A stretch of DNA of 64,000 nucleotides from Halogeometricum rufum (GTDB taxonomy: Archaea; Halobacteriota; Halobacteria; Halobacteriales; Haloferacaceae), in NCBI RefSeq assembly GCF_900112175.1, contig NZ_FOYT01000002.1:1-64000 (forward strand), written 5' to 3'. Below, piece by piece: positions 30,070 to 39,880 of the stretch; position 1 is the first letter of the stretch; each line of letters opens with the position of its first letter. Made by a program: the position numbers and the translations under genes. Below the pieces are notes generated by a model. It saw nothing but the letters and a program-made list of their open reading frames with translations, had not been told where the DNA came from and made no database searches.

Positions 30070-30630
30070 ATGACCGACGCGCCCCAGACCGTCTTGACCG
30101 TCGACGACGAACCGTCGCTGACCGAACTGTACGCCGCGTGGTTAGCCGACGCGTACGAGGTGCGGCAGGCGAACGACGCCGCGGCGGCACTCGACGCCGT
30201 CGCGTCGGACTTCGACCCCGACGTCGTCCTCCTCGACCGACAGATGCCGGAGACTACCGGCGACGAACTGCTCGATACTCTCCGCACCGAGGGCGTCGAC
30301 TGCCCGGTGGTGATGGTGACGGCGGTGGACCCCGAGTTCGACGTCGTCTCGATGCCGTTCGACGACTACCTCGTGAAACCGGTCGGCCGCGACGAGGTGA
30401 CGCGGACCGTCGAGGCGTCGCTGACGCGCGAGACGTACGACGAACAGGTGCGCGACTACTTCGCGCTCGCTCGAAAGCGGGCCGTACTGGAGGCGTCGAC
30501 GGCCGTCACGGAGGTACACGACCACCCCGCGTATCGGGAGTTACGGCGCGAACTCGACCGGGTCTCGCGGACCGCCGACCGGACCCGCGACGACCTGCTA
30601 CGCCGGGAGCGACCGTTCGAGCATGACTGA
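30070..30630 (+). CDS. HalX-type response regulator
   Basis: 186 residues. Receiver domain 1-~115: TVDDEPSL (acidic pocket), phosphoacceptor Asp in DVVLLDRQMPETTGDELL, Thr in MVTAVDP, Lys in DDYLVKPV. Residues ~120-186 are the HalX helical region (ARKRAVLEASTAV, HPAYRELRRELDRVSRTAD), common in haloarchaeal regulators and lacking a classic HTH. Its stop overlaps the kinase start (ATGACTGA, 8 nt), so regulator and kinase are made together and are very likely cognate. Confidence 0.93.
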   Translation: MTDAPQTVLTVDDEPSLTELYAAWLADAYEVRQANDAAAALDAVASDFDPDVVLLDRQMPETTGDELLDTLRTEGVDCPVVMVTAVDPEFDVVSMPFDDYLVKPVGRDEVTRTVEASLTRETYDEQVRDYFALARKRAVLEASTAVTEVHDHPAYRELRRELDRVSRTADRTRDDLLRRERPFEHD

Positions 30631-32710
30631 CGACGGCCGGTCCGCGTTCCACCGCCTCCTCCCGCGCCGGATACGGCGCAGTTACGCCGCGACGTTCGCC
30701 TTCGTCCTCGTCGGCGTCACGTTCTGTATCGTGCTCGTCGGCGGGGTGACGTACGTCCACGCCGGCGACGTCCTCGAACGGGACACCCAGCAGCAGGTGG
30801 TGACGAACGCGGAGATACAGGCGAACCAACTCGACGAGTGGGTGCGGCGGATGCGCGTGACGCTTCGCTCGACGGCGGAGTCGGCCGCGTTCCAGTCGGG
30901 CGACCGGGGGGAGATAGCCGTCTACCTCTGGGAAGTCGTCGAACGCGACGACGACGTGGCCGCCGCCTACTACGTGGACACGACGAACCACACGGTGCTG
31001 TCGAACGCCGGGTCGGCCGAGGTGTCGAGCGCCGTCTCGGTCACGACGGGCCGCGGCCGCGAGGCGTTCGTCGCCGCCGCCCGCGAGTCCTCGGGCGCGT
31101 CGGACGTGGTCGTCTCCGACCCGTTCCGCCCGACGCCCGACGGAGCGCCCGTCGTCCTGTTCGCGACGGCCGTCCCCAACACCGACGGCTCCCGGGCCGT
31201 CGTCGCCGTCGTGGACCTCGTGGAGGCGTCCGACCGGCACCTGCACCACACCGACGACGGCACGTTCGTCGTCCGCAACGACGCGGGCACCGTGGTCATG
31301 TCGCAGGACGAGTCGCGGATTCTCACCGCGGACGAACTGGCGACGGAGACGCTCACCGGCGCTCGCGGCCACGCGGCCACGACGCTCGACGGGCGGCCGA
31401 CGGAGGTGGGGTACGCCGCACTCGACGCCCGCCCGTGGACCGTCACGTCGCGCGTCCCGGCGGCGACGGCGTACGCGCTTCGCGGCGACATCCTCGCCGG
31501 TCTCGGCAGCATCCTCGCGGCCGTCCTCGTCGGTGCCGGCCTCATCGCCGTCACCCTCGGGCGCGACACGACACGCTCGGTCCGGACGCTCGCCGAACGC
31601 GCGCGGCGACTCACGGCGGGCGAGTTGGACGACCCGGTACGGACGGACCGCGAAGACGAGTTCGGCCACCTGTTCTCCGCGTTCGAGGCGATGCGGCAGT
31701 CGCTCAGGGCGCGCATCCGCGAGGCGGAAACCGCGCGTGAGGCCGCCGAAGACGCGCGGCGCGAAGCCCTCGAAGCGAAGGCGGAGTCCGAGGCGTTCAG
31801 CCGGCACCTCGAACGCACGGCCGCCGCGTACGGCGACGTGATGGCGTCGTGCGCGTCGGGTGACCTCGCGTCCCGCCTCGACCCCGACGACCGGAGCGAG
31901 GCGATGCGCACGGTCGCCGTCTCGTTCAACGCGATGATGGACGACGTGCAGGAACGCAACGAGCAACTGGCGACCATCTCGCACGTCCTCAGCCACGACC
32001 TGCGGAACCCGCTGAACGTCGCCACCGGCCGCGCGAACCTCCTCGCGGAGGACGTCGACTCGCCACACGTCGGACCGCTCTGCGACGCACTCGACCGCAT
32101 CGACACCATCATCGACGACGCCGTGGTCCTCGCTCTGCACTCGAACGTCGAGGAGACGATACCCGTCGACCTCCGCGCGCGGGCCACGTCGGCGTGGGCG
32201 CTCGTCGAGACGGAGGCGGCGACGCTCACGGTGACCGAGACGACCACGTTCGACGCCGACCGCGACCTCCTGAGCCACGTGTTCGAGAACCTGTTTCGGA
32301 ACTCGGTCGAGCACGGCGCTCGACGTGCCTCCGGTCGCTCCGCTCCCGGAGACAGCGTGGAGCACGGCGCCAGGAGCGACCGGACGGCGTCCGGCGACGA
32401 CCCACCACCGGACGCCGGCGTCCACGTCCGCGTCGGACCGCTGGCAGACGCCCGCGGCTTCTACGTCGAGGACGACGGCGACGGCATCCCGCCGGCGGAC
32501 AGAGACGCCGTCCTCGCGGCCGGGTACACGACGAACCGCGAGAACGGGGGGACCGGGTTCGGCCTCAGCATCGTCAAGACCGTCGCCGACGCCCACGACT
32601 GGACCGTGACCGTCACCGAGAGCGAGACGGGCGGCGCGCGCTTCGAGGTGGGCGTCGAACCGCAGTCGGAGCGCGAGTGTGCCACGGCCGACGCGCCGAC
32701 GGAGGTCTGA
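30623..32710 (+). CDS. Membrane sensor histidine kinase with MCP-like sensor domain
   Basis: 695 residues. Membrane segment ~22-45, extracellular double-Cache-like region ~46-288, second membrane segment ~292-315, HAMP, a coiled coil (~360-405), HisKA with phosphoacceptor His in SHVLSHDLRNPLNVA, and HATPase with N box HVFENLFRNSVEHG and G box GGTGFGLSIVK. Its sensor half resembles those of the transducers at 49350 and 53574. A ~40-residue low-complexity insert with a duplicated SVEHG follows the N box. Operon partners: the HalX regulator (overlap) and the PstS-like lipoprotein (1-nt gap). Confidence 0.92.
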   Translation: MTDDGRSAFHRLLPRRIRRSYAATFAFVLVGVTFCIVLVGGVTYVHAGDVLERDTQQQVVTNAEIQANQLDEWVRRMRVTLRSTAESAAFQSGDRGEIAVYLWEVVERDDDVAAAYYVDTTNHTVLSNAGSAEVSSAVSVTTGRGREAFVAAARESSGASDVVVSDPFRPTPDGAPVVLFATAVPNTDGSRAVVAVVDLVEASDRHLHHTDDGTFVVRNDAGTVVMSQDESRILTADELATETLTGARGHAATTLDGRPTEVGYAALDARPWTVTSRVPAATAYALRGDILAGLGSILAAVLVGAGLIAVTLGRDTTRSVRTLAERARRLTAGELDDPVRTDREDEFGHLFSAFEAMRQSLRARIREAETAREAAEDARREALEAKAESEAFSRHLERTAAAYGDVMASCASGDLASRLDPDDRSEAMRTVAVSFNAMMDDVQERNEQLATISHVLSHDLRNPLNVATGRANLLAEDVDSPHVGPLCDALDRIDTIIDDAVVLALHSNVEETIPVDLRARATSAWALVETEAATLTVTETTTFDADRDLLSHVFENLFRNSVEHGARRASGRSAPGDSVEHGARSDRTASGDDPPPDAGVHVRVGPLADARGFYVEDDGDGIPPADRDAVLAAGYTTNRENGGTGFGLSIVKTVADAHDWTVTVTESETGGARFEVGVEPQSERECATADAPTEV
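32280..32368. repeat. Hairpin-rich 89-nt segment shared with the kinase at 38315 (copy 1)
   Basis: This segment differs at one base (32327) from 39438-39526. It contains two inverted repeats: GTCGAGC/GCTCGAC at 32306-32324 and CTCCGG/CCGGAG at 32329-32351. It is in frame and encodes the N box plus the start of the SVEHG-containing insert. Confidence 0.85.
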
Positions 32711-32711
32711 C

Positions 32712-33710
32712 GTGCGGGGCAGTTCTTCGCGACCGGCCGCGTCGCGTCGGGCGGTGCTGCGGTCGCTCGGGGTCTGTACCGCCGCCGTCGGCGGGTGCCT
32801 CGGCTCCCCGAGGGGGAAGCAGACGGGGACGACGGACGCGGTGTCGTCGTCTCGACTCTCCGGGACCGTTCGCATCGCCGGGAGCAGCACCGTCTACCCG
32901 CTGACGCTCGAACTCGGCAACCGGTTCACCGAGGCGCATCCGGGCGTCGACGTGTCGCTCTCCTCGACGGGCACGGGCGACGGCTTCGCGAACTTCTTCT
33001 GTGCCGGGCGGACCGACCTCAACGACGCGAGTCGGGCGATTCGCGACGACGAACGGGCGGCCTGCGCCGCGGCGGGCGTCGAACCGCTCCGGTTCCAGGT
33101 CGCGACGGACGCCCTGACCGTCGTCGTGAACGAGGGCGCCGACTGGGTGTCCTGCGTGACGCTGTCGGAACTGGCGAGCGTGTGGCGCGAGGGCGGCGCG
33201 GACCGGTGGCGGGACGTGCGCCCCGCGTGGCCCGACGAACCCATCGAACTCCACGGCCCGACGTCGGCGTCGGGGACGCTCGACTACTTCTCGGAGGCGG
33301 TGCTCGGCGACCGCTCGCACCGGACCGACTACGCCGGCACCGAACAGGACGAGACCGTCGTCGAGGCGGTCCGTCGGTCGCGCTACGCGATGGGTTACTT
33401 CGGCTTCGCCTACTACGTCCGCAACCGCGACGCCGTGCGCGCACTCGCCACCGCGGCGGGCGGCGGCGCGTGCGTCCGGCCGTCGTTCGAGTCCGCGCGG
33501 ACCGGGCGGTACGTCCCCCTCTCCCGTCCGCTGTACGTCTACGTCGACCGGGCGGCGCTCTCTCGGCGCGTCGTTCGCGAGTTCGTCGCCTACTACCTCG
33601 ACCACGTCACCGGCGACGTCGTCCGCGACGTGGGGTACGTCCCCCTCTCCGAACGGACGGCCCGGCGGAACCGCGAGCGCCTGCGAAGCGCCGTCTCCGA
33701 AGTCGTCTGA
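32712..33710 (+). CDS. PstS-like phosphate-binding lipoprotein
   Basis: 332 residues, GTG start 1 nt after the kinase stop. N-terminus SRRAVLRSLG (Tat) and lipobox GGCLG (lipidated Cys29). The PBP signature IAGSSTVYPLTLELGNRF and TGTGDGFANFFCAGRTDLNDASR match PstS-type phosphate-binding proteins, with SGTLDYFSEAVLG and a late RPLYVYVDR block. No pstCAB genes lie beside it, unlike a transport operon, so a signalling role with the kinase is plausible: bound ligand could be reported to the extracellular Cache-like domain. Phosphate as ligand is inferred from family only. Confidence 0.85.
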   Translation: MRGSSSRPAASRRAVLRSLGVCTAAVGGCLGSPRGKQTGTTDAVSSSRLSGTVRIAGSSTVYPLTLELGNRFTEAHPGVDVSLSSTGTGDGFANFFCAGRTDLNDASRAIRDDERAACAAAGVEPLRFQVATDALTVVVNEGADWVSCVTLSELASVWREGGADRWRDVRPAWPDEPIELHGPTSASGTLDYFSEAVLGDRSHRTDYAGTEQDETVVEAVRRSRYAMGYFGFAYYVRNRDAVRALATAAGGGACVRPSFESARTGRYVPLSRPLYVYVDRAALSRRVVREFVAYYLDHVTGDVVRDVGYVPLSERTARRNRERLRSAVSEVV

Positions 33711-33737
33711 CCGCCGGGGCGCCCGGCGAGTCACGCT

Positions 33738-33747
33738 CTTTTTATCC
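33738..33747 (+). promoter_or_regulatory. TATA box of the gene at 33770
   Basis: CTTTTTATCC, centred ~27 nt before the ATG at 33770, predicts a leaderless transcript. The same T-run may also end transcription of the upstream PstS-like gene. Confidence 0.6.
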
Positions 33748-33769
33748 GCAGACGCGTTAGCTTCCGCTC

Positions 33770-34381
33770 ATGGCGAAGGTCAGTATCGGGCTCCGTGGGT
33801 GGCGCTTCGACGAGGACGAGGTGTTCACCGACGAGGGGGAGTTCCGCCCCCTCGACGAGGTTCCGGACGACACGCGACGACGACTCATCCGACTCACCTA
33901 CCTGCAGGGCAAGCCGTGCGACGCCTGCTACCTGATTCACGGCGAGGCGGAGAAGAAGCGCTGCAACCCGGCCGAGTTCGTCTACGGCGAACCGATGGAG
34001 GAGGTGCTCCTCTGCGCCGACCACGAGGCCGACTTCCTCTACTGGTACCGCGAGGCCGGCGGCTCCGACCACCGGGGCGAGGAGACGTTCCGCGACGAGT
34101 TCCACGAGTGGTTCGCCGCGGGCGAACGCGCCCCCGAGGGGTACGGCGGACTCGACCACGTCGACACGGGGACGGACGAACTGCCGACGCCGCCGGACCC
34201 CGCGGAACTGAACCGTCGGCTGAACGAGAACTACGAGGGCAAGCGCAAGCGCATCGACCTCCGCACCGGAGAGATACGGTACGAGGAGTGGGACGAACGG
34301 CGCGGCGACGACGAGGACGACGAGGACGCCGTCGACGACGTGGGTGACCTCGACCTCGGGCAGGACTACCCGACGAAGTGA
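33770..34381 (+). CDS. Conserved haloarchaeal protein with putative zinc site
   Basis: 203 residues. The N-terminal half contains CDACYLIHGEAEKKRCNPAEF and LLCADHEADF, a C-x2-C...C...C-x2-H set suitable for zinc. The middle is rich in Trp/Tyr (WYREAGG, FHEWFAAGERAP), and the end is acidic with a KRKRIDLRTGEIRYEEW segment. Start from the TATA box. The stop overlaps the ATG of the next gene by one nt (TGATG), so it is co-translated with the RNA methyltransferase. Unknown family; a role linked to RNA modification is suggested only by this coupling. Confidence 0.75.
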   Translation: MAKVSIGLRGWRFDEDEVFTDEGEFRPLDEVPDDTRRRLIRLTYLQGKPCDACYLIHGEAEKKRCNPAEFVYGEPMEEVLLCADHEADFLYWYREAGGSDHRGEETFRDEFHEWFAAGERAPEGYGGLDHVDTGTDELPTPPDPAELNRRLNENYEGKRKRIDLRTGEIRYEEWDERRGDDEDDEDAVDDVGDLDLGQDYPTK

Positions 34382-35130
34382 TGGCGCGCCGATTCACCCC
34401 CGTCGTCGTCGTGGTCGAACCCGAGACGCCGGGCAACGTGGGGACCATCGCCCGCGCGATGAAGAACTTCGGGCTGTCCGACCTCAAACTCGTGAACCCG
34501 CCGCCGCTGGAACCCGACGGCGAGGCGTACGGCTTCGCCGGACACGCCCGCGAGGACGTCCTCCCGAACGCCGAGGAGGTGACGTTCGAGGAGGTGGTCT
34601 CGGAGTACCACACCGTCGCGACGACGGCCATCACGAACGAGGACAGCCGAAAGCACGTCCGCTTCCCGTTCAAGACGCCCGCCGAGGTGCGCGAGAGTCT
34701 GGAGACGGTGGACACGAAGACGGCCCTCGTCTTCGGCCGCGAGGGTCGCGGCCTCAACAACGACGAACTCGCGCGGATGGACGAGGTGTGTTCCATCCCG
34801 GCGAGCGACGACTACCCCGTGTTGAACCTCGGACAGGCCGCGACGGTGCTGCTGTACGAACTCCGGTCGCTCACCGTCGCGGAGACGCAACTCCCCGACG
34901 TGGAACGCGAACGGGCCGAGGAGTCCGAGATAGAGCGCTTCTACGACAACTTCGAGTCGTTCGTCGAGCGCGTCGAACACCGCGACCACAAGCGCCCGAA
35001 GACGCTGCGGATGATGCGCCGCCTCGTCGGCCGGGCGCATCCGACCGACCGGGAGATAACGACGCTGACCGGCCTGTTCCGCCGAGCGTCGAACCGCATC
35101 GACCGGTTCGAGGACGAGACGCGCGACTGA
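34381..35130 (+). CDS. trmJ: SpoU/TrmH-family RNA 2'-O-methyltransferase (TrmJ-like)
   Basis: 249 residues. SPOUT-fold motifs: PETPGNVGTIARAMKNFGLSDLKLV (motif 1), ALVFGREGRGLNNDELARMD (motif 2) and IPASDDYPVLNLGQAATVLLYEL (motif 3, knot). The C-terminal ~70 residues (RRLVGRAHPTDREITTLTGLFRRASNRID) match the TrmJ extension, so tRNA Nm32 methylation with S-adenosylmethionine is most likely. Start ATG 34381; a GTG one codon before is possible. The upstream gene overlaps by 1 nt. Confidence 0.88.
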   Translation: MARRFTPVVVVVEPETPGNVGTIARAMKNFGLSDLKLVNPPPLEPDGEAYGFAGHAREDVLPNAEEVTFEEVVSEYHTVATTAITNEDSRKHVRFPFKTPAEVRESLETVDTKTALVFGREGRGLNNDELARMDEVCSIPASDDYPVLNLGQAATVLLYELRSLTVAETQLPDVERERAEESEIERFYDNFESFVERVEHRDHKRPKTLRMMRRLVGRAHPTDREITTLTGLFRRASNRIDRFEDETRD

Positions 35131-35277
35131 CCCCCGCCCGATTCTTCGACCCCCGAGTTCCGGCACTTCCCTCTGGCCGAAATATTGATATGTTCGATAA
35201 TCCAACGTGACGCCGAACACAAGCGCCCCCCGTCCCGACGGTGAGAGTCGTCCGACGGCGGGAGTCCGTTCGACACC

Positions 35278-36639
35278 ATGCCCGACACAGAGGCGTTCGC
35301 CGAACGTGAGGCGACCGGCGCCATCGTTCTCGACGCCGACAGCACCGTTCTGTACCTGAGCGCCGCCCTCTCCCGCGAGTGCGGCCACGGAGCGTCGGCG
35401 ATGGTCGGTGACGACGTCCGGAAGTACGTCCACCCCGACGACCGAGCGCGGTTCTCGTCGTTCGCCCGAACGTCCGACGACTGCCACCCGTTCCGGTACC
35501 GACTCCGCCACGCCGACGGGTCGTGGGTCTGGTTCGAGGCCACCGGCTGTCGTCGACTCGGCGACGACTGCGTCGTCAGGTCGAGGGCCGTCACCTCCCT
35601 CGACGGCCCGGCCCGGACGCTCGAACGGTTCGAGACCCTCCTCGAATCTCTCGACGACGCCGTCTACGCCATCGACTCGGAGGGGACGCTCGTCTACGTC
35701 AACGAGCGGTACGCGGCGATGAAGGGCGTCGAACGCGAGGCGATACTCGGAACCGATGTCTACAGTTGGGCGGACGGCGAAGCGATCGAGCGGATACGGG
35801 CGGCGCGCCGAGAGATGAACGCCCGCGGCGAGAGCGTCGGAACGGTCGAGTTCGGCTTCTCGACCGTCGACGGCGGGACCGTCCCGGTCGAGATGCGGTT
35901 CAGCACCGTCTCCGGGCCGGGCGCAGACCTCGAACGGGTCGGCGTCCTCCGTGACGTGACCGAGCGGAAGGCCCGAGAACGAGCCCTTCGTCGGAAGAAC
36001 GAGCGCTTAGAGGAGTTCGCCAGCGTCGTCTCCCACGACCTGCGGAACCCGCTGAACGTCGCCGAAGGGTGGCTGGAGCAGGTCCGCGCCGAGTGCGGCG
36101 GCGACGGAGACGACGCCGTCGACCGCGTCGCGGCGGCGCACGACCGGATGGGAGCGCTGATAGACGACCTCCTGACGCTGGCGCGCGAGGGGCGCGACGT
36201 GGACGACCCCGACGCCGTCGACCTCGCGGCGGCGCTTCGCCGGGCGTGGGAGACGGTCGAGACGGACGACGCGACGCTCGTCGTCGACGCCGAAGGCGTC
36301 GTCCGGGCCGACGAGTCGCGCCTCCGCCAACTGCTCGAGAACCTCGTTCGCAACGCCGTGGAACACGCGGGACCCGACGCGACGGTCACGTTGGGGGACC
36401 TCGAAGACGGCTTCTTCGTCGAGGACGACGGGCCCGGAATCCCGGTCGAGATGCGCGAGAAGGTGTTCGACCTCGGCTACTCGACGGCGACCGACGGAAC
36501 GGGATTCGGCCTCGGAATCGTCGAAGAGATAGCCGAGGCACACGGCTGGACGGTGTGCGTCGCGGAGGGGACCGCGGGCGGCGCGCGGTTCGAGATTACC
36601 GGCGTCGACGCCGCGACTGAGGCGGAAGCCGCGGAGTGA
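35278..36639 (+). CDS. PAS-domain sensor histidine kinase (soluble)
   Basis: 453 residues with no membrane segment. Two PAS domains: ~8-108 (VLDADSTVLYLSAALSRECGHGAS) and ~118-230 (YAIDSEGTLVYVNERYAAMKGVEREAILGTD...VTERKARERAL). HisKA follows with His in FASVVSHDLRNPLNVAEGWLEQV, and HATPase with ENLVRNAVEHAGPDATVT, FFVEDDGPGIP and GFGLGIVEEI. The region after the N box has no SVEHG insert, which makes it a clean reference for the two kinases that carry one. A response regulator partner is not adjacent. Confidence 0.93.
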   Translation: MPDTEAFAEREATGAIVLDADSTVLYLSAALSRECGHGASAMVGDDVRKYVHPDDRARFSSFARTSDDCHPFRYRLRHADGSWVWFEATGCRRLGDDCVVRSRAVTSLDGPARTLERFETLLESLDDAVYAIDSEGTLVYVNERYAAMKGVEREAILGTDVYSWADGEAIERIRAARREMNARGESVGTVEFGFSTVDGGTVPVEMRFSTVSGPGADLERVGVLRDVTERKARERALRRKNERLEEFASVVSHDLRNPLNVAEGWLEQVRAECGGDGDDAVDRVAAAHDRMGALIDDLLTLAREGRDVDDPDAVDLAAALRRAWETVETDDATLVVDAEGVVRADESRLRQLLENLVRNAVEHAGPDATVTLGDLEDGFFVEDDGPGIPVEMREKVFDLGYSTATDGTGFGLGIVEEIAEAHGWTVCVAEGTAGGARFEITGVDAATEAEAAE

Positions 36640-36651
36640 CGCGGGAGCGAC

Positions 36652-37149
36652 TCACTCCTCCCCGTCGCCGTCGCGCCGCCCGAACATCGTCAGCGCGACC
36701 ATCGAACAGACCACCTCGCCGCCGGCGTCTCCGTCGCTCTCGCCGTTCTCGCCGCCGTCCGCACCGTCGCGCACCACCTCGATTCGACTCTCGACGAGGC
36801 CGCGGTCCGGTCGTTCGGCCTCCTTCGACAGCACTTCGAGTCGGAGCGACAGCGTGTCGCCGGGACGGACCGGGCGTCGCCAGCGCAGTTCGTCGACGCC
36901 TTTCGCGCCGAGCGACGCCGTCTCCGAGAGGAACTCGTCGACGAGCATCCGCATCATCATCGCCGTGGTGTGCCAGCCGCTGGCGATGAGGCCGCCGTAC
37001 ATCGACTCCTCGCGCGCCCGGTCCGGGTCGGTGTGGAACCACTGCGGGTCGTACTGCTCGGCGAACGTCAGAACCTCCTCCTCGGTCACGTCGTACCGGC
37101 CGAACTCCTCGACCGAACCCACGGTGAAGTCCTCGAAGAACCTCGTCAT
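36652..37149 (-). CDS. MaoC-family hotdog-fold dehydratase
   Basis: 165 residues. MaoC signature FAEQYDPQWFHTDPDRAREESMYGGLIASGWHTTAMMMRM, with Asp and His of the hydratase motif (D-x4-H) and the GLIASGWHT turn. The basic segment VDELRWRRPVRPGDTL is typical of MaoC-like enoyl-CoA hydratases or related acyl-thioester enzymes. The end is an acidic glycine-rich loop. Substrate not deducible. Converges with the PAS kinase (12-nt gap) and diverges from the HtpX-like gene. Confidence 0.88.
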   Translation of the reverse strand: MTRFFEDFTVGSVEEFGRYDVTEEEVLTFAEQYDPQWFHTDPDRAREESMYGGLIASGWHTTAMMMRMLVDEFLSETASLGAKGVDELRWRRPVRPGDTLSLRLEVLSKEAERPDRGLVESRIEVVRDGADGGENGESDGDAGGEVVCSMVALTMFGRRDGDGEE

Positions 37150-37250
37150 ACGACGCGAGTCGGGTCGTCGGACAATGAGACTGTGGGTCCCGGAGACGCG
37201 TTCGGGGGGCGGACGAATCGTTTTGCCGCTGGCCGGCGTAGGTCGGGCCG

Positions 37251-38216
37251 ATGTCCGCGCCCACCCGGTCGCTCGGGACTCGACTCGTGATGGCGTTCGT
37301 GGGCGTCGTCGTCTTCGCCTTCTACGCCCTCCTCGCGTACGGGAGTTACGTCGCGCTCTCGCTCCTGTGGCGACTGCGGTTCGACCCGGTGACGACGCTC
37401 CTGCTCGTCGTCGGTCTCACGCTCGCGTTCGGCTATCTGGGGCTCCGCGTCGGCACCGCGCAACTGTACTCCCAACTCGACGCGCGCGAACTCCCGCGAG
37501 AGCGAGTGCCCGGCGCGTACCGGATACTGGACCGACTCGTCGAGCGGATGGACCTCGACGCGCCCCCGCGACTGATGGTCGTCTCGCTGCCGGCGCCGAA
37601 CGCCTTCGCCCTCGACACGACGGGACGCGACACCGTCGTCGTGGACGCGGCGCTGTTCCGACTCCTCGACCGCGATGAGTTCGAGAGCCTGCTGGCGCAC
37701 GAACTCGCACACCTCGAACGCAGGGACAGCCTCGTCCAGACGCTGGCGTTCAGCGTGCTCCAGACCGTCGTGAGCCTCGTCTACTTCGCCGTCGCGCCCG
37801 TCGTCTTCCTCGTCACGGGACTGGCGCTCTCGACGGCGTGGGTCCGCGGCGACCCCGCCTCGTGGCCCCGGACGGTTCCCGGCCGCATCCGCACGCGTCT
37901 CGAACGCGCCGCGTCGTTCGTGATGGGACTCGCGATGCTTCTGTCGCGCGCACACTCGCGCAGGCGGGAGTACGCGGCCGACGCGCGGGCGGCCGAGGTG
38001 ACGGGGCGACCGCTCGCTCTCGCGCGCGCCCTCGAGAAGATAGAGCGGGCGTCGACGACCGAGTTCGAGGTGTTCTCGCCGCTGTGGCTTCACGGCGAAG
38101 TCCCCTCCGAGGAGGAACGCCGCGCCCGCGAACTGTTCTCGACGCACCCGCGGACCGAGGAACGCATCGAGCGACTCCGACGCCGGGGCGGCGGAGACGG
38201 GGCGCGCCTCTCCTGA
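37251..38216 (+). CDS. htpX: M48-family membrane metalloprotease (HtpX-like)
   Basis: 321 residues. Membrane segments at about 12-38 and 45-62, catalytic zinc motif HELAHLE (HExxH) in LLAHELAHLERRDSL, further hydrophobic region ~165-195, and a third ligand Glu in RREYAADARAAEVTG (E-x3-D). This matches HtpX-type membrane quality-control proteases. A CGTTTTGC TATA-like box lies ~28 nt before the ATG. Ser/Arg-rich C-terminal tail. Substrates unknown. Confidence 0.9.
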   Translation: MSAPTRSLGTRLVMAFVGVVVFAFYALLAYGSYVALSLLWRLRFDPVTTLLLVVGLTLAFGYLGLRVGTAQLYSQLDARELPRERVPGAYRILDRLVERMDLDAPPRLMVVSLPAPNAFALDTTGRDTVVVDAALFRLLDRDEFESLLAHELAHLERRDSLVQTLAFSVLQTVVSLVYFAVAPVVFLVTGLALSTAWVRGDPASWPRTVPGRIRTRLERAASFVMGLAMLLSRAHSRRREYAADARAAEVTGRPLALARALEKIERASTTEFEVFSPLWLHGEVPSEEERRARELFSTHPRTEERIERLRRRGGGDGARLS

Positions 38217-38314
38217 CGGTCCGACCGGAACGCCCGTCCGGAGGGGCGTCGGAGACCGGGCAGATTCCATACAGTTATATCTGGTGGCAGAACGCACTAC
38301 GATTCGAGTCCGAG

Positions 38315-39880
38315 ATGAGCACGATACCGGGCGAGATTCGCGTCCTCCACGTGGACGACGACGACGCCTTCGCCGAGTTGGTCGCCACGTACCTCGAACG
38401 CGAGGACGACCGCATCGACGTGGTCACCACCACGGCCGTCGCCGACGCAGTCGCGGCACTCGACGACGACGTCGACTGCGTCCTCGCCGACTACGACATG
38501 CCCGACCGCACAGGTATCGAGTTTCTCGAAGTCGTCCAGGAGCGGTATCCCGACCTGCCGTTCGTCCTGTTCACCGGCAAGGGGTCCGAGGAGATAGCGA
38601 GCGAGGCCATCTCCGCGGGCGTCACCGACTACCTGCAGAAGGGAACCGGGACGGAGCAGTACACGCTCTTGGCGAACCGCATCGTCAACGCCGTCGAGAG
38701 CTACCGGTCGCGGCGCGTGCTCGAAGAGCGCAAGCGACGGCTGGAGACGCTCATCGACAACCTCCCCGGGTTCGTCTACCGGTGCGAGAACGACCCCGGG
38801 TGGCCGATGGAGTACGTCGAGGGCGACTGCGAGCAACTCACGGGGTACACCGCCGCCGAGTTGGAGTCCGACGACTCGCTGTGGGGCGAGGAGGTACTCC
38901 ACCCCGACGACAGGGACCGCGCGTGGGACGTGGTCCAGTCGGCGCTGGCGGACGACGGCCAGTTCGAGTTGACCTACCGAATCGTCACCCGGGCAGGCAA
39001 CATCGAGTGGATGTGGGAACGCGGGCAGGCCATCTACGAGGGGGACGAACTCGTCGCGCTGGAGGGGTTCGTCACCAGCATCACCGACCAGAAGGAGCAC
39101 CAGCGAGAACTCGAACGGAAGAACCGACGGCTGGACGAGTTCGCCACCATCGTCTCGCACGACCTACGAAACCCGCTCGCCGTCGCGAGCGGCCACACCG
39201 AAATCGCCCGCGAGGAGTGCGACAGCGACCACCTCGACCCCGTCGCCGACGCCCACGACCGGATGCGACGGCTCATCGAGGGGCTGTTGGACCTCGCCCG
39301 CGACGGCGAGACGACCGTCGAACCGGTCACACTCGCCTCCGCCGCAGAGTACTGCCGACAGAACGTCGGCGGCGTCGGCGAACTCGTCGTCGAAACCGAC
39401 CGCGTCGTTCGCGCCGACCGGAGCCGACTCCGCCAACTGTTCGAGAACCTGTTTCGGAACTCGGTCGAGCACGGCGCTCGACGTACCTCCGGTCGCTCCG
39501 CTCCCGGAGACAGCGTGGAGCACGGCTCCACGGGCAACCGGACGTCGTCCGGTGACAGCGTGGAACACGGGTCCACGAGCAGTCGCCCAGAGGCCGACGA
39601 CACCGCAGGCGACTTCGACCCCCCGACCATCACCGTCGGGGACGTCGACGGCGGGTTCTTCGTCGCCGACGACGGCCGGGGAATCGACGCCGACGCGGGG
39701 GACGTGTTCACGCCGGGCTACTCGACGAACCGGGGCGGGACGGGTCTCGGGTTGGCCATCGTCCGGCGAGTCGCGGAAGACCACGGGTGGGAGGTGACCC
39801 TGACCGACGGCGCGGACGGCGGGGCGCGGTTCGAGTTCACCGGCGTGGAGTTCGCCGACGGCGACGGTGACGGTGACTAG
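38315..39880 (+). CDS. Receiver-PAS-histidine kinase hybrid
   Basis: 521 residues from MSTIPGEIRVLHVDDDDAF. Receiver domain 1-~120 with phosphoacceptor Asp in CVLADYDMPDRTGIEFL, Thr in LFTGKGSEEI, Lys in YLQKGTG. PAS ~140-265 (NLPGFVYRCENDPGWPMEYVEGDCEQLTGYT, ...GFVTSITDQKEHQ). HisKA His in ATIVSHDLRNPLAVASG. HATPase N box FENLFRNSVEHG, followed by a ~45-residue insert with two more SVEHG copies, then FFVADDGRGID and GGTGLGLAIVRRV. A TTATATC box at 38275 precedes the ATG by ~37 nt. Long frames from 37838 are shadow. Confidence 0.93.
   Translation: MSTIPGEIRVLHVDDDDAFAELVATYLEREDDRIDVVTTTAVADAVAALDDDVDCVLADYDMPDRTGIEFLEVVQERYPDLPFVLFTGKGSEEIASEAISAGVTDYLQKGTGTEQYTLLANRIVNAVESYRSRRVLEERKRRLETLIDNLPGFVYRCENDPGWPMEYVEGDCEQLTGYTAAELESDDSLWGEEVLHPDDRDRAWDVVQSALADDGQFELTYRIVTRAGNIEWMWERGQAIYEGDELVALEGFVTSITDQKEHQRELERKNRRLDEFATIVSHDLRNPLAVASGHTEIAREECDSDHLDPVADAHDRMRRLIEGLLDLARDGETTVEPVTLASAAEYCRQNVGGVGELVVETDRVVRADRSRLRQLFENLFRNSVEHGARRTSGRSAPGDSVEHGSTGNRTSSGDSVEHGSTSSRPEADDTAGDFDPPTITVGDVDGGFFVADDGRGIDADAGDVFTPGYSTNRGGTGLGLAIVRRVAEDHGWEVTLTDGADGGARFEFTGVEFADGDGDGD
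39438..39526. repeat. Hairpin-rich 89-nt segment shared with the kinase at 30623 (copy 2)
   Basis: It differs at one base from 32280-32368. Further palindromes follow in the same insert: CGTGGAG/CTCCACG at 39514-39532 and CCGGACGTCGTCCGG at 39538-39552. They lie in frame between the N box and the G1 box of the HATPase domain. Confidence 0.85.

Follow-up and report, generated by a model that had tools for sequence, protein, structure and literature searches.

In-frame arrays of a probable mobile palindromic element at the N box of haloarchaeal histidine kinases

The hairpin-rich insert that follows the N box of two histidine kinases in the window (the whole 64,000-nt stretch of Halogeometricum rufum DNA analysed here) is, with a probability of about 0.8, an array formed by a mobile palindromic element of haloarchaea, one that enters coding sequences. 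The element is restricted to Halobacteria, lies in one orientation and one frame, is present or absent as exactly 45 nt and is spread over unrelated genes. Each usual 45-nt insert lengthens the protein by a short, flexible 15-residue loop and leaves the gene unbroken. In-frame palindromic inserts were so far an oddity of Rickettsia and of a small number of other bacteria; a comparable element with its own architecture is now found across an entire class of archaea, with valyl-tRNA synthetase and RNase P p30 among the enzymes that carry it. It also accounts for a recurrent run of low complexity that follows the N box in haloarchaeal kinases and can be mistaken for a functional motif.

An earlier note on this DNA had singled out a nearly identical segment in two otherwise diverged kinases, and we recovered it: 32280-32368 and 39438-39526 match at 88 of 89 bases (sole mismatch at 32327), whereas the two genes are 68% identical over the 300 nt upstream and 71% in the downstream parts. 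With flanks at 68-71% identity, kinases 1 and 2 are thus not recent duplicates throughout. The segment starts at the end of the N-box helix (FENLFRNSVEHG) and extends into the insert. HisKA and HATPase_c were found by Pfam in both insert-bearing genes of the window (Table 1). SVEHG is indeed present twice in kinase 1 and three times in kinase 2, and the PAS kinase between them (35278-36639) lacks the insert, its HATPase_c match covering 97 residues versus 133 and 142 in the insert-bearing kinases. The arrays span 32303-32398 (51 + 45 nt) and 39461-39601 (51 + 45 + 45 nt). The short palindromes described in that note are real: when the 141-nt array of kinase 2 was folded as single-stranded DNA, 2 of 200 shuffles folded as well. 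The single-stranded fold of 66 nt taken from the start of the 51-nt unit alone was not significant (z -0.71).

Table 1. Kinases, near-identical segments and double-hairpin units in the window.
Feature	Positions	Strand	Basis
Histidine kinase 1, insert-bearing	30623..32710	+	Open reading frame; Pfam HATPase_c 546-678, HAMP, HisKA; dCache_1 weak, below cut-off
89-nt segment, identical to 39438-39526 save base 32327	32280..32368	+	Pairwise comparison
Kinase 1 first unit, 51 nt, encodes SVEHGARRASGRSAPGD	32303..32353	+	Direct reading; weak R1 match, 17.8 bits
Hairpins of this 51-nt unit: GTCGAGC-ACGGC-GCTCGAC and CTCCGG-N11-CCGGAG	32303..32353	+	Direct reading
Kinase 1 double-hairpin unit, 45 nt, encodes SVEHGARSDRTASGD	32354..32398	+	R1 58.5 bits, E 1.8e-15
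PAS histidine kinase, empty N box NAVEHAGPD, without insert	35278..36639	+	Open reading frame; Pfam
Histidine kinase 2, insert-bearing (response regulator, PAS, HisKA, HATPase_c)	38315..39880	+	Open reading frame from sequence; Pfam
89-nt segment, partner of 32280-32368	39438..39526	+	Pairwise comparison
Kinase 2 first unit, 51 nt, encodes SVEHGARRTSGRSAPGD	39461..39511	+	Direct reading; two hairpins when array folded
Kinase 2 double-hairpin unit, 45 nt, encodes SVEHGSTGNRTSSGD	39512..39556	+	R1 70.9 bits, E 3.5e-19; DNA fold z -3.6
Kinase 2 double-hairpin unit, 45 nt, encodes SVEHGSTSSRPEADD	39557..39601	+	R1 54.2 bits, E 3.8e-14

The architecture of the 45-nt unit was obtained from a gapless alignment of 52 distinct units: AG, an 8-bp hairpin, RGCA, a 7-bp hairpin and GAC, each loop being of 3 nt. 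Despite divergent stem letters the arms covary in these 52 units, with 96.9% of the cells paired versus 81.3% when shuffled, and 105 doubly changed cells versus 28.6 in the shuffles; slid registers gave 28-48% pairing, none above 48%. Over the 8 + 7 pairs of 127 units we counted 267 doubly changed Watson-Crick cells and just 36 G-U cells, a scarcity that would favour pairing as DNA, or joint change of the two arms, over ordinary RNA drift. Units are usually 45 nt long, with forms of 48-51 nt as well, and the 51-nt unit scores weakly with the covariance model R1. A structured RNA element of the mRNA (for processing, pausing or regulation) might likewise display two conserved, covarying stems that within genes invariably lie on the sense strand, but the rarity of G-U pairs makes such an element very improbable, as do the lack of any Rfam match at gathering score in 11 loci (the window not among them) and the differences in unit presence between sister species in unrelated genes.

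The sense frame of the unit is hydrophilic and follows the pattern S-x-E-x-x-S-x-S-x-N-R-T-x-S-G-D. Nearly all kinase units keep VEHG, and their tandem number varies, with up to five VEHG-type units. If the insert had been retained for protein function, the VEHG repeats serving as spare N boxes or as a regulatory ATP-lid loop, such conservation would be expected. We hold this to be improbable: units outside the kinases encode other residues in the same first stem (AERRSAS, AEGTSAG, DGRGPSG), the stem changes are compensatory at the DNA level, and sister-species and paralogous kinases manage without the insert. Translational bypassing was rejected, every insert being open and a multiple of three in length, and copies with a stop in the loop truncate the gene (L208, L218). 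The first of these is a unit in an alcohol dehydrogenase gene of a sister species (G002, L208:1581-1625, + strand), where a TAG in the second loop ends the frame; the gene has apparently been disrupted by this insertion.

A search of 60 family genomes gave matches in 37, mostly N-box arrays in the loci read. The scans with R1 gave 6-23 matches per genome in the genus of the window (E 0.01) and matches in 67 of 116 genomes of the class Halobacteria at 1e-10. Of 148 genomes sampled across the phylum, 15 had matches at 1e-8, and all 15 belong to the order of the window. Within the genus, at least 23 Pfam-recognised non-kinase genes carry the unit on the sense strand and in one shared frame, among them those of valyl-tRNA synthetase (ValRS), RNase P p30, ThiD, TrpG, threonine aldolase and thioredoxin reductase (TrxB); no antisense or out-of-frame copy was found in Pfam-recognised genes of the genus, and the Pfam domains are intact in the non-kinase insert-bearing genes. 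The non-kinase units of the window's own genome lie in ValRS, an XPD/DinG-like helicase, a DUF402 protein, a thioredoxin-reductase-like protein, a HerA-like helicase and two C-terminal tails. The family search added in-frame units in acyl-CoA synthetase, glutamine amidotransferase, metallo-beta-lactamase-fold proteins and others. Units with unlike stems occupy the same site in three GH13 alpha-amylase-family paralogues from a single genome (L221:1504-1548, L224:1592-1636, L232:1530-1574).

Exact empty sites were recovered for the single-unit genes. ValRS and TrxB were compared first, and orthologues of the further genes were retrieved with a concatenated query; in 12 cases out of 12 (ValRS, TrxB, ACS, ThiD, ABC, TrpG, p30, DUF402 protein, molybdopterin oxidoreductase, XPD-like helicase, HerA-like protein and Thr aldolase), the orthologues in sister species were shorter by exactly 15 codons (45 nt). 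The ValRS insert, VV[DSEERSSSDSRTESD]DSQEEF, is missing from all four sister species, and VD[VAEGTSAGNQTQSGD]ASERPF in TrxB, whose nearest named relative is that of Halogeometricum pallidum (89% identity), compares with an empty VDASERPF in Haloferax. The HerA site is filled in two species, and the TrpA insert, larger and in two parts, is not among the single-unit 12. The in-frame mobile palindrome suggested in the earlier note is thus well supported, by dozens of unrelated in-frame host proteins and by the exact 45-nt absence in sister-species orthologues; its link to the N box was not upheld, the element being found in many unrelated non-kinase genes. Such clean presence and absence makes movement without gene damage, and the gain of short flexible loops in proteins, testable. 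The insertions were seen between species and no within-species insertion is among the comparisons, so that current activity is unproven.

The codon GAC precedes 17 of 25 non-kinase units, against a codon use of 8.9% (P 8e-13), and forms the end of 20 of the 25. A filled site has a GAC-like codon on each side and an empty site has it once; duplication of GAC and a shared end are indistinguishable here, and both the insertion boundary and the target are ambiguous over the repeated GAC. Since the right end changes with divergent native sites (GAG in TrpG and the DUF402 protein, GTCGAC in ThiD), the terminal GAC is probably target sequence. A model in which target sequence supplies the 5' arm of stem 1, with the 3' arm as its inverted copy, was rejected for TrxB, whose empty site is devoid of such an arm; for the kinase copies the model is possible.

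A nucleotide-level search across all 7 contigs of the genome (4.19 Mb) placed a 121-nt segment in five kinases, at 89-100% identity and always at the N box. Three of them lie beyond the window pair and were absent from the earlier note; two further kinases of the genome have the N-box DNA alone in common. With 39 HATPase_c matches in this genome, most kinases lack the insert. The 51-nt unit is common to the five kinases here and to four kinases of the sister species G004, which fits a recent spread within kinases. Because the identity block of the kinase copies includes native N-box codons, the ongoing gene conversion at the N box that the earlier note suggested is plausible as a second layer for the five kinases. 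An ancestral tandem duplication at the N box followed by slippage and gene conversion, with no mobile element, would explain why all kinase copies sit at one position, with VEHG and shared native N-box DNA, and why their copy number varies. We nevertheless give this little credence, and it is refuted as a full account by the occurrence of the structured unit in many non-kinase genes that have neither an N box nor kinase homology; it survives as the second step in the kinases.

Two observations concern the N-box DNA itself. The sequence TTCGAGAACCTGTTTCGGAAC, with its rare TTT codon, is conserved among diverged kinases even without the insert (window 32281-32303 and 39439-39461; L006, L007) and is a possible recombination hot spot. 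In G049, a kinase N box has three near-identical 48-nt tandem repeats of a different palindrome, VEHGSTSPRANAPED (L122:1513-1656).

How the mobile element would move can be sketched as follows. It would join a GAC-like site, in most cases an Asp codon in frame, and this site would afterwards flank it on both sides. Since the unit length is a multiple of three and the sense frame open and hydrophilic, copies in surface turns would be tolerated and others purged. The form recognised and moved may be a folded single-stranded hairpin, acted on by a factor supplied in trans. In the kinases, settlement at the N box would have begun with an element that encodes VEHG in its first stem. It would have grown there in tandem, as every unit provides a further GAC site at its end; homologous recombination within the conserved N-box DNA would then have carried the array from one paralogous kinase to another, leaving the 89-nt near-identity behind. 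The kinase copies thus probably spread among paralogues through N-box recombination and tandem growth, and most of them could stem from one event and then recombination alone. The loop after the N box would have been lengthened in this way; we claim no signalling function for it. More tentatively, the element may inherit structure and not sequence, the stem arms changing jointly while the element is copied or shortly afterwards (hairpin-templated synthesis). The preferred GAC site, which in these GC-rich genomes is mostly an Asp codon, would itself fix the reading frame, and the element would thus be made for life within proteins.

As to the source of the movement, the unit could be a minimal PATE, that is, a terminal-only IS200/IS605 derivative moved by TnpA. 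PATEs and the ends of IS605-type elements are the closest described haloarchaeal elements, with palindromes near their ends, no internal transposase, no target duplication and terminal-only forms of about 52 bp (PMC3119063); moreover, a tnpB element of about 1475 bp, present in several copies, contains a full unit within its 3' part. This origin appears rather unlikely to us, as that unit is about 190 nt inside the tnpB element and not terminal, TnpA is absent from the window's own genome, and the TnpA loci of sister species show no clear unit. The Y1 transposase (PF01797) has no match in the own genome and 1-2 in the sisters, with no correspondence between its presence and element number. TnpA dependence in the own genome is not supported. 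For PATEs, residence in frame within housekeeping genes is not described in the passages of PMC3119063 consulted. In the locus read (L151:248-1722), the unit (1486-1530, - strand) is antisense just past the tnpB of this IS200/IS605-type element, which occurs in two genera at about three copies per genome; L156 is a core-deleted copy and L154 consists of the last 230 nt.

We read the element as an archaeal, independently built counterpart of the Rickettsia palindromic elements (RPEs) and of intragenic REPs. Mitochondrial double-hairpin elements also have two short hairpins per mobile unit, like the haloarchaeal one, but are mitochondrial. RPEs are palindromic DNA inserted in frame, in one frame and with a conserved peptide, in many unrelated protein genes (PMC10969869). 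Our unit is of the same kind, being in frame in unrelated protein genes with empty sites in related species, but not of the same family: RPEs are of about 150 bp and found in Rickettsia, and they differ from the 45-51-nt unit of Halobacteria by this length, by the freely varying stems of the latter, by its tandem arrays and by its GAC site. Intragenic GTAG- or CGTC-tagged REPs are likewise short palindromes, some of which fall within coding sequence, frequently that of DNA-repair and tRNA-related genes (PMC3733652). Unlike REPs, which are mostly intergenic and often head-to-head dimers, the unit is mostly coding in the genus of the window, has two unlike hairpins in direct order and carries AG, RGCA and GAC in place of the GTAG/CGTC foot; the RAYT/Y1 transposase of GTAG-type REPs has no PF01797 counterpart in the own genome. 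PARCEL repeats, also palindromic, with a repeated peptide and tandem copies, and thought to be mobile (PMC2996958), encode 25 amphipathic residues in proteins of unknown function, whereas the unit encodes 15 hydrophilic residues in known enzymes. The coding palindromes of nematomorphs are perfect inverted repeats inside translated genes (PMC6649704); they are long and mitochondrial, both arms encode conserved protein and they are not dispersed, unlike the unit. No prior report of a haloarchaeal in-frame palindromic element was found in the open-access literature.

Relatives of the unit were also recovered outside genes. They form intergenic arrays in one genus, which we infer to be probably Halorubrum. 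In genus g14, several copies of a multi-hairpin repeat about 300 nt long lie between genes in each genome (L329-L346, e.g., L330:1790-2082); these repeats enclose the 45-nt unit between the common flanks GAGGCTGGGGAGGCGTGAGG and GCTTTGGCGGTG. In G004, a longer unit has two intergenic copies (L225:756-806 and 2547-2597), the second adjoining what appears, by eye, to be the end of a tRNA gene.

The turn of TrxB is a recurrent site, with different relatives of the element in Natrinema thermotolerans, Halobiforma and Halegenticoccus and apparent remnants elsewhere. The hairpins in N. thermotolerans and Halobiforma are GTCGAGC-AAA-GCTCGAC and CCAGAACGC-GTC-GCGTTCTGG. In the AlphaFold model of the Natrinema TrxB (mean pLDDT 75.6, shallow alignment), residues 98-112, between two strands, have a pLDDT below 50, as would be expected of a loose surface loop.
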